A stretch of DNA of 64,000 nucleotides from Euzebya sp. Its GTDB lineage: Bacteria; Actinomycetota; Nitriliruptoria; Euzebyales; Euzebyaceae. Location: the NCBI RefSeq assembly GCF_964222135.1, contig NZ_CAXQBR010000074.1, forward strand, positions 1 through 64,000. Direction: 5' to 3'. This document shows, piece by piece, positions 58,872 to 63,749 of this stretch (position 1 is its first letter; each line of letters begins with the position of its first letter). The notes below the pieces were generated by a model. That model was not told where the DNA came from. It was given only the letters and a program-made list of their open reading frames with translations, and did not search any database. The position numbers and the translations under genes were made by a program.

Positions 58872-59348
58872 TCAGACCTGTGCCAGGACGCCCTCGTCCT
58901 CGAGGCGGATGACGAGGTCCTCGGGGTCGGTGCCGTAGATGACGCTGAGGGCGCGGAGGTCCTCACCCCGTATCGTCAGGACGTTGCCGTTGAAGTCGCC
59001 GCGCTGCAGCTGGATCGTGTGCGCGAACCGCGAGACCGGGCGGAGGTCGGGATCGAGATCGGCGCGGGACAGCTTGCGCAGGTCGAGCATGATCTTCGAC
59101 GCCGCGGAGCTGGCGGTCGACGGCAGGTCCTCCTTCGGCAGCAGCTCGGAGACCGGCACGTTGTAGAACTCGCTGAGCTCGGCCAGCTTGGCGACGCTGA
59201 CCGCGCGATCCCCGCGCTCGTAGGACCCGACCACGACCGCCTTCCAGCGGCCCCCCGAGACCTCCTCCACCTGCTGCAGCGTCAACCCCTGCTGCTGGCG
59301 GATGGCCCTCAGCCGCGCCCCGAGGCGCTTCTGGTAGTCAGTGGCCAC
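58872..59348 (-). CDS. bldD: BldD-type developmental regulator with c-di-GMP motif
   Basis: This transcription factor has 158 residues. The GTG at 59348 is preferred since AGGAGGA lies nine bases before it and the product [20 protein letters not shown] aligns with BldD from its first residue. A GTG two codons upstream is too close to the Shine-Dalgarno. The N-terminal helix-turn-helix contains [19 protein letters not shown]. The C-terminal domain has the c-di-GMP signature: Arg116 and Asp118, then eight residues, then Arg127 and Asp130 ([15 protein letters not shown]). In Streptomyces BldD is dimerised by tetrameric c-di-GMP and represses sporulation genes. Whether this organism differentiates is unknown. 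A BldD box overlaps its own promoter. Confidence 0.95.
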
Positions 59349-59429
59349 GTTCACTTCTCCTCCTGCCGCAGCCCCCGTCGAGGGCTGTGACGATCACGGA
59401 CCGTGTCGGTCGGTCTCTCTCAGCGTTCA

Positions 59430-59458
59430 ACTCTAACACAGAGTCACGTCCGACAGAA
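59430..59458 (-). promoter_or_regulatory. bldD promoter
   Basis: On the minus strand TTCTGT (59458-59453) and TAGAGT (59435-59430) lie 17 bases apart. The leader to bldD is about 75 bases, with a Shine-Dalgarno. Nothing else is seen at 59460-59570. Confidence 0.6.
59434..59446. promoter_or_regulatory. BldD box, autoregulatory operator
   Basis: TAACACAGAGTCA matches every fixed position of the Streptomyces BldD consensus TnACnC(A/T)GnGTnA, on both strands. It touches the -10 box and fills the spacer of the bldD promoter, so BldD should repress its own transcription. The consensus is known, and the binding here is inferred. Confidence 0.75.
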
Positions 59459-59572: not shown

Positions 59573-61704
<2,132 letters not shown>

Positions 61705-61758: not shown

Positions 61759-61871
61759 GTCATGTCCGCGAACAGAACCGGAACACGTCATCGACAGGGG
61801 GGCGGCCGAGCCGTACCGTCACGCGCTCCGCACGCCGCCCGGCGGCGGACCCTACGCAGTTGGAGGTCCGG

Positions 61872-63749
61872 TTGAAGCTGTTCAGAACCCTCGCGATCGC
61901 GTGCCTGGTGGTGTCCCTCATCACGCCGGCCGCCGCCGCGGACCCCGAGTACCAGATCGTCGACGGCGAGCCGGCCGCCGACGGCGCCTACCCCTGGATG
62001 GCCGCGTTCCTCTTCGACGGCGGACAGGGCTGCGGAGCATCGGTCATCGCACCCCAGTGGATCCTCACCGCAGCGCACTGCGTCCTCGACGACCGCGGCC
62101 AGCCGGCGGTCTCCGTCGACCAGGTCTCCTTCGCCGTCGACACGACGAACTGGACCGAGGGCGGCCAGGTGCTGACCGCTGCCGAGATCATCGCCCACCC
62201 CTCCTACGACCCCCTCACGACCAACAACGACGTCGCGCTGGTCCGGACCAACGAGGCGGCGCAGGTCACCCCGGTCGCCCTGGCGGGCACCGGCGAGGCG
62301 GCCCTGGAGGCGCCCCCCACCGTCGCCCGGGTCATCGGCTACGGCGCCCTCGGCACCGACCGCGAGGGGTCCGAGCAGCTGCTCCAGGTCGACGTCGACG
62401 TCCGCGACGATGCCGTCTGCGCGCCGTTCTGGCCCCAGTGGGAGGACCTGACCATGCTGTGCGCCGGCAACCCGACCGAGGACTCGGCCGACCCCGGCCG
62501 CGACTCCTGCCAGGGCGACTCAGGCGGCCCGCTCTTCGTCGAGCGCGACAGCGGCCCGGTCCAGATCGGCATCGTCTCCTACGGCGGCGAGTGCGGCGTC
62601 GGCTCACCCGGCGTCTACGCCCAGGTGTCGACCTTCAGGCAGTGGATCGACGGCATCGTCGGCGGCCAGGTCCAACCCGACCAACCCGACCCCGGCCCGG
62701 CCGGCGAGCAGCCCGACGGCGCGGCCGCCGACCCCCTCCGCGTCGGCGGGGACGACCCGGTCGCCAACGCCATCGCCATGTCCCAGCTGATCTTCCAGGG
62801 CGACGCGTCCTTCGGCGTGCTCGCCGCCTCGGCGAACTTCCCCGACGCCCTCGGCGGCTCGGCGCTGGCGTCCTACCACGGGCCGCTCCTGTACGTCGAC
62901 GCCGCCGGGCAGCTCGGACCGGCGACGCTCGCCGAGTTCCAGCGCACCGTCCCCGCCGGCGGGGTCATCTACATCCTCGGGGGCGTGGCCGCGGTCAGCG
63001 CCGAGGCCGAGCAGCAGCTCATCGCCGACGGCTTCGAGGTCGTCCGGCTGGGCGGCTCCGGACGCCAGGAGACCGCCCGGCTGGTCGCCGAGGAGGTCAT
63101 CGCCACCGTCAACGGGGGCGAGGTGCCGCCGTTCGACTCCGTCATCGTCGCCTACGAGGGCAACTGGCCCGACGCGGTAGCCGTCGGCCAGATCTCGGCG
63201 TGGTTCGGCATCCCCGTGCTGCTGACCCCGACCGACACCCTCGGCGGCCCCGCCGCGGAGTACCTGTCCACCTACCAGCCGACCACCGTGATGGTCCTCG
63301 GCGGCGACGCCGTGATCGGCCAGGCGGTGCGCGACGAGATCGAGGCCATCACCGGCCCCGACACCCTCATCGAGCTGCAGGGCCCGAGCCGGATCGCCAC
63401 GAGCGCCGACATCACGGTGTTCAACCGCTACGAGCTGTTCCCGCTGAACGCGGAGATCTTCGAGTTCAGCGGCGAGCCGATCACCGAGCCGGAGGTCGTC
63501 CTCGCCGTGAACCTGCGGCGCGACGACGCGTTCGCGCACGTGCTCGCCGCCTCCCAGGTCGTCGGCAACGTCGGTGGGGTGTTCGCCCCGCTCGAGGGTG
63601 ACGGCAGCGCGGTCGAGCAGTCGGTCCTCGACTCCATCTGCGGCCTCGACGCCGAGGTCATCGCCATCGGGAGCACGAGCCTGGTGGCCGACGCCGCCCT
63701 CGCGCCGCTCCAGGCCGCCTCCGCCGGCCAGGGGTGCGCCGCGGGCTGA
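61872..63749 (+). CDS. Secreted trypsin-like serine protease with cell-wall-binding repeats
   Basis: A 625-residue exoprotein. The start is the TTG at 61872, since GGAGG at 61862-61866 is well placed and the product begins with a clear signal peptide (MKLFRTLAIACLVVSLIT, cleavage after Ala). The S1 protease domain has the triad His69 in LTAAHC, Asp120 in NNDVALV and Ser217 in GDSGGP. Asp211, six residues before the serine, predicts trypsin-like specificity for Arg/Lys. From about residue 265 come three cell-wall-binding type 2 repeats (RVGGDDPVANAIAMSQ, FPDALGGSALASYHGPLLYV and VIYILGGVAAVS mark the first). It is probably surface-retained. Confidence 0.93.
   Translation: MKLFRTLAIACLVVSLITPAAAADPEYQIVDGEPAADGAYPWMAAFLFDGGQGCGASVIAPQWILTAAHCVLDDRGQPAVSVDQVSFAVDTTNWTEGGQVLTAAEIIAHPSYDPLTTNNDVALVRTNEAAQVTPVALAGTGEAALEAPPTVARVIGYGALGTDREGSEQLLQVDVDVRDDAVCAPFWPQWEDLTMLCAGNPTEDSADPGRDSCQGDSGGPLFVERDSGPVQIGIVSYGGECGVGSPGVYAQVSTFRQWIDGIVGGQVQPDQPDPGPAGEQPDGAAADPLRVGGDDPVANAIAMSQLIFQGDASFGVLAASANFPDALGGSALASYHGPLLYVDAAGQLGPATLAEFQRTVPAGGVIYILGGVAAVSAEAEQQLIADGFEVVRLGGSGRQETARLVAEEVIATVNGGEVPPFDSVIVAYEGNWPDAVAVGQISAWFGIPVLLTPTDTLGGPAAEYLSTYQPTTVMVLGGDAVIGQAVRDEIEAITGPDTLIELQGPSRIATSADITVFNRYELFPLNAEIFEFSGEPITEPEVVLAVNLRRDDAFAHVLAASQVVGNVGGVFAPLEGDGSAVEQSVLDSICGLDAEVIAIGSTSLVADAALAPLQAASAGQGCAAG

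Follow-up and report, generated by a model that had tools for sequence, protein, structure and literature searches.

The window, by which we mean the whole 64-kb stretch of Euzebya DNA analysed here, carries on its reverse strand an open reading frame that encodes an orthologue of BldD (Table 1). Translation from the GTG at 59354 gives a product of 160 amino acids, although a product of 158 amino acids beginning at the GTG at 59348 (VATDYQ) is equally likely because relatives begin at that GTG. Residues 4-73 of the N-terminal part are identical to the DNA-binding domain of Streptomyces coelicolor BldD (2ewt) at 51 of 70 positions; this part has a helix-turn-helix of the BldD type, and its 17-residue DNA-recognition segment is identical to that of the S. 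coelicolor protein. When residues 86-157 of the C-terminal part were aligned with the c-di-GMP-binding domain (4oaz, 5khd), 34 of 72 columns were identical, and the Pfam profile BldD-like_C (PF21179) matched the protein with 80.1 bits against a cut-off of 27. The NCBIfam equivalog model for BldD (NF050110) matched residues 4-158 with 213.6 bits, which is under its cut-off of 250, a value presumably set on Actinomycetia sequences. We therefore name the protein a BldD orthologue by its domains and motif, and not as an NCBI equivalog. It is the only BldD match in this genome, whose nearest named relatives are Euzebyaceae, Egibacteraceae and 'Nitriliruptorales' MAGs; on this basis the host belongs in Euzebyales, class Nitriliruptoria. 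The preliminary description had taken the reading frame for a BldD homologue outside Streptomyces-like bacteria, and both the identity in the DNA-binding domain and the placement of the host in Euzebyales agree with that assignment.

The gene diverges from groES, which also adjoins bldD in the relatives G001, G002, G003, G006 and G010, and the CIRCE-like element in front of groES-groEL lies outside the BldD switch. In Streptomyces the neighbours of bldD are pyrR/nusB, unlike the groES-groEL setting seen in several Euzebyales. Elsewhere in the window, positions 61860-63749 encode a predicted secreted protein in which, as judged by eye, a trypsin-like serine protease part is followed by repeats of a cell-wall-binding type.

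Table 1. Features at and around the bldD locus, in window coordinates.
Feature	Position	Strand	Basis or remark
bldD orthologue	58872..59354	-	ORF and translation; both domains compared with solved BldD structures
Predicted ribosome-binding site of bldD, AGGAGG	59359..59364	-	
Predicted extended -10 TGTTAGAGT	59430..59438	-	hexamer TAGAGT at 59435-59430; fused to right half-site of box
Predicted BldD box TGACTCTGTGTTA (TAACACAGAGTCA on the + strand)	59434..59446	-	conserved core box in Euzebyales bldD promoters
CIRCE-like element GCACTC-N9-GAGTGC	59613..59633	.	before divergent groES-groEL
groES	59744..60052	+	divergent neighbour of bldD

The c-di-GMP signature of BldD

The RxD-X8-RxxD signature was described earlier as intact, and it is: the focal protein has it as RGD-X8-RGED, and this form recurs in 28/28 Euzebyales BldD orthologues examined. 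In addition, Lys84 of Streptomyces BldD aligns to a lysine in the focal protein. A lack of c-di-GMP metabolism genes would have spoken against such a switch, but the genome has 51 GGDEF matches and so encodes diguanylate cyclases.

Most Euzebyales have a single BldD, whereas genomes of two sister families of the class (f4 and f5) contain two to six BldD-like matches each (several in G030, G032, G034, G036, G037, G039 and G040; loci L228-L247). Since RxD-X8-RxxD is retained in all 15 of the f4/f5 paralogues that could be scored, the family appears to have grown with its c-di-GMP signature in place; few of these paralogues have a box at their own promoter. An alternative account of the focal protein is that it binds its box and regulates its own gene but is no longer dependent on c-di-GMP, the motif being kept for folding. 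Such a history would fit the lower similarity of the C-terminal domain to Streptomyces (34/72) than of the DNA-binding domain (51/70), but it sits poorly with the constancy of the four specifying residues throughout the Euzebyales orthologues and the scored sister-family paralogues while neighbouring positions vary, with the Lys84 equivalent and with a genome rich in GGDEF genes. We regard it as quite unlikely and retain c-di-GMP dependence as the preferred reading.

The predicted bldD operator

The published consensus for the BldD box is TNAC(N)5GTNA (PMC4151990). An autoregulatory box fitting the Streptomyces consensus had been proposed in the bldD promoter, and TAACACAGAGTCA at 59434-59446 does agree with that consensus at every fixed position. 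It is also the sole perfect TNACNCWGNGTNA within the window; as dinucleotide shuffles yield a mean of 0.20 perfect matches per 64 kb, one match by itself is no more than mildly unexpected. What makes the predicted box convincing is instead its position and its conservation. Of 28 bldD promoters from Euzebyales, 26 have the TNAC(N)5GTNA core, compared with 0.45 in shuffles. The stricter TNACNCWGNGTNA, with at most one mismatch, is found in 22/28; shuffles give about 0.6 and the reversed pattern gives 0. The free positions of the box vary among the Euzebyales genomes, as would be predicted for a maintained operator.

No promoter emerged at bldD from a generic sigma-70 scan, and the extended -10 came only from comparing relatives. 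An element of the form TGnTAnnnT is located 8 or 18 bp (once 19) from the start of the box in 22 of the 28 promoters (0.54 in shuffles). With an offset of 8, the right half-site GTNA forms part of the TGnTA element, and with an offset of 18 the box is placed one helical turn farther upstream of the extended -10; both boxes, one helical turn apart, occur in L010, L011, L014, L015 and L021. In the window itself, the TAGAGT hexamer and the end of the box overlap. The core promoter would lie under bound BldD, making autorepression the natural reading of a layout that is what autorepression predicts. A competing notion, in which the box arose by chance and bldD is not autoregulated, could draw on the background rate in shuffles. 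It is very improbable, and sequence comparison has for practical purposes refuted it through the shared core box and the constant spacing to the -10 element. No report of a conserved bldD operator architecture was found in the literature, and the order-wide architecture, with the partial target list given below, appears to be new here.

Box placement and candidate targets in Euzebyales

Box scans of the focal genome were conducted by pattern and by region, and the survey covered four genomes of its genus and ten more Euzebyales genomes, with genes predicted by a simple codon-usage caller. The four genomes of the genus contain 10, 14, 18 and 14 perfect boxes. The total per genome is not above that predicted from permuted patterns, so that part of the sites must be background; only their placement is unusual. 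In the genus, 33/56 perfect boxes are intergenic, compared with 18.6% when 179 palindromes permuted at constant composition are used (p = 3e-11), an excess of about threefold, and across all 14 Euzebyales genomes the figure is 62/121 against the same 18.6% (p = 6e-16). Over-representation by raw count was considered and rejected, as permuted palindromes are equally frequent (2.6 per Mb). Boxes outnumber a spacing-shifted pattern six-fold (56 versus 9); this apparent excess may reflect frequent CAG/CTG triplets. A scrambled palindrome could not serve for comparing counts, since it also matches codon strings that are common.

We defined near targets as downstream genes no more than 200 nt from a box, leaving out bldD and groES. 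GGDEF proteins make up 6/47 of these near targets and 4/325 of the other genes in the same stretches (p = 4e-4, in a test that was sharpened after the first genomes had been seen). They span three genera, with L105, L119, L123 and L128 in the focal genus (G001, G002 and G003), L203 in G006 and L266 in G010. L096, its orthologue L109, and L112 also encode GGDEF proteins and are preceded by a box at a greater distance, 238-409 nt. Among direct targets of BldD in Streptomyces are cdgA and cdgB (PMC4151990). Of the 31 GGDEF genes checked in the focal genome, none has a box within 200-250 nt upstream, and GGDEF genes were found at only 1/37 box sites in six replication genomes. We therefore rate feedback of BldD onto cyclase genes as likely at the level of the order, but as no more than possible in the focal genome. 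The predicted targets point to c-di-GMP turnover, through relatives more than through the focal genome, and weakly to motility and surface proteins. As a class, secreted proteins account for 11/47 near targets and 44/325 other genes, which is suggestive only (p = 0.06).

Several individual genes near boxes may be recorded. L131, L196 and L265, from three genera, encode secreted proteins that by eye contain a CAP-like (SCP-like) domain, and each lies 17-37 nt 3' of a perfect box. The HDOD-domain genes L103 (G003) and L111 (G001), apparently orthologous, have perfect boxes 60 and 41 nt upstream, respectively, that differ in their letters. In G001, L122 starts 23 nt after a perfect box; by eye it resembles a Flp-type pilin gene and is followed by a TadE-like gene, and it has no NCBIfam match.

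The clearest second target in the focal genome (G000) is motAB: a perfect box precedes motA by 54 nt, and this candidate is common to one congener only. In that congener (G003) a perfect box is found 156 nt before motA, in an intergenic region that also serves a divergent GGDEF-EAL gene. BldD might accordingly be a repressor that binds c-di-GMP, regulates its own gene and serves motility above all, through the flagellar stator genes motAB. The two motA boxes differ in position and sequence, and Nitriliruptoria belong to basal actinobacterial classes that are often flagellated (PMC10746217), both of which suit such a duty; but 9/11 scored regions upstream of motA, including that of the near relative G001, are without a box, and G002 retains bldD and its box yet has no MotB_plug match. 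A primary role in motility is therefore unlikely. An order-wide motility regulon was rejected, the motA box being present only in G000 and G003, and motAB would be at most a local target.

Relation to Streptomyces BldD and the age of the switch

In Streptomyces, BldD uses c-di-GMP to hold back spore formation and is known as a sporulation brake. A published survey describes the basal actinobacterial classes, Nitriliruptoria among them, as unicellular throughout and forming no spores (PMC10746217), and it follows that BldD should have a role other than sporulation in this class. To this extent the older role for the switch that was proposed in the preliminary description stands, but the idea is not new: Chandra and Chater (2013) considered bldD to be ancient, with an orthologue in Acidimicrobium and repeated loss, and suggested a role in growth or stationary phase in simpler actinomycetes (PMC4255298). 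Within the library of papers searched, none named both Nitriliruptor and BldD. A search for SsgA as a sporulation marker gave no match, but control genomes gave none either.

The Euzebya protein resembles BldD of S. venezuelae and S. coelicolor in its two-domain layout, identical recognition segment and RxD-X8-RxxD signature, in a TNAC(N)5GTNA box at its own promoter and, in Euzebya's relatives, in having GGDEF genes among the likely targets. It is unlike Streptomyces BldD in the lifestyle of its host class, in its position beside groES-groEL, in its score under the NCBI equivalog cut-off, and in the small number of perfect boxes, with no evident sporulation gene at any site that was examined. 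Fusion of the box to the extended -10, or its placement one helical turn above, is a candidate further difference, seen in the Euzebyales promoters that were compared.

We consider the best reading, with a probability of roughly 0.75, to be that Euzebya BldD is ancestral, represses its own gene in a c-di-GMP-dependent way and is wired into the turnover of c-di-GMP. At the sequence level this reading is built on homology, the motif, the box, its promoter register, the intergenic bias and the GGDEF enrichment, from which we infer c-di-GMP binding, DNA binding, repression and a physiological role. The protein would work as Streptomyces BldD does at the molecular level. Its C-terminal domain would bind a c-di-GMP tetramer via RxD-X8-RxxD; this would allow two BldD subunits to form a dimer that recognises TNAC(N)5GTNA boxes. 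At the box fused with the extended -10, c-di-GMP-loaded BldD would block RNA polymerase and repress bldD, and boxes at some Euzebyales diguanylate cyclase genes would couple BldD and the c-di-GMP pool in a feedback; scattered genes for surface proteins, regulators and stators may also be subject to control through their boxes. Because Euzebyales are non-sporulating and have boxes at cyclase genes and a scatter of others, BldD probably served at first to control lifestyle or to keep c-di-GMP in homeostasis, and its link to sporulation would have been acquired afterwards, in Actinomycetia.

As the site at bldD itself is conserved across the order and the same site occurs at c-di-GMP-making genes in several relatives, the BldD switch probably predates sporulation. 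A fuller history can be proposed only tentatively, at somewhat less than even odds: the switch would be ancestral to the split between Nitriliruptoria and Actinomycetia, the autorepression register (in some promoters with two boxes) and the cyclase feedback would have been preserved, sporulation would have been grafted on later, and duplication to 2-6 paralogues in the sister families would have kept the signature. The original function of BldD is a question raised in PMC4255298. It can be tested directly in a group that forms no spores and has a single BldD, a clear site for its self-control and diguanylate cyclases by the dozen. If the cyclase feedback is true, the switch behind Streptomyces development would have at its core a c-di-GMP homeostasis loop that was inherited. 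A parallel is offered by WhiG-RsiG, another c-di-GMP switch of Streptomyces development that is also present in actinobacteria other than Streptomyces; it belongs to a different protein family and operates through an anti-sigma factor in place of a dimerised repressor, and outside Streptomyces it has been suggested to control GGDEF/EAL genes (PMC8325347).
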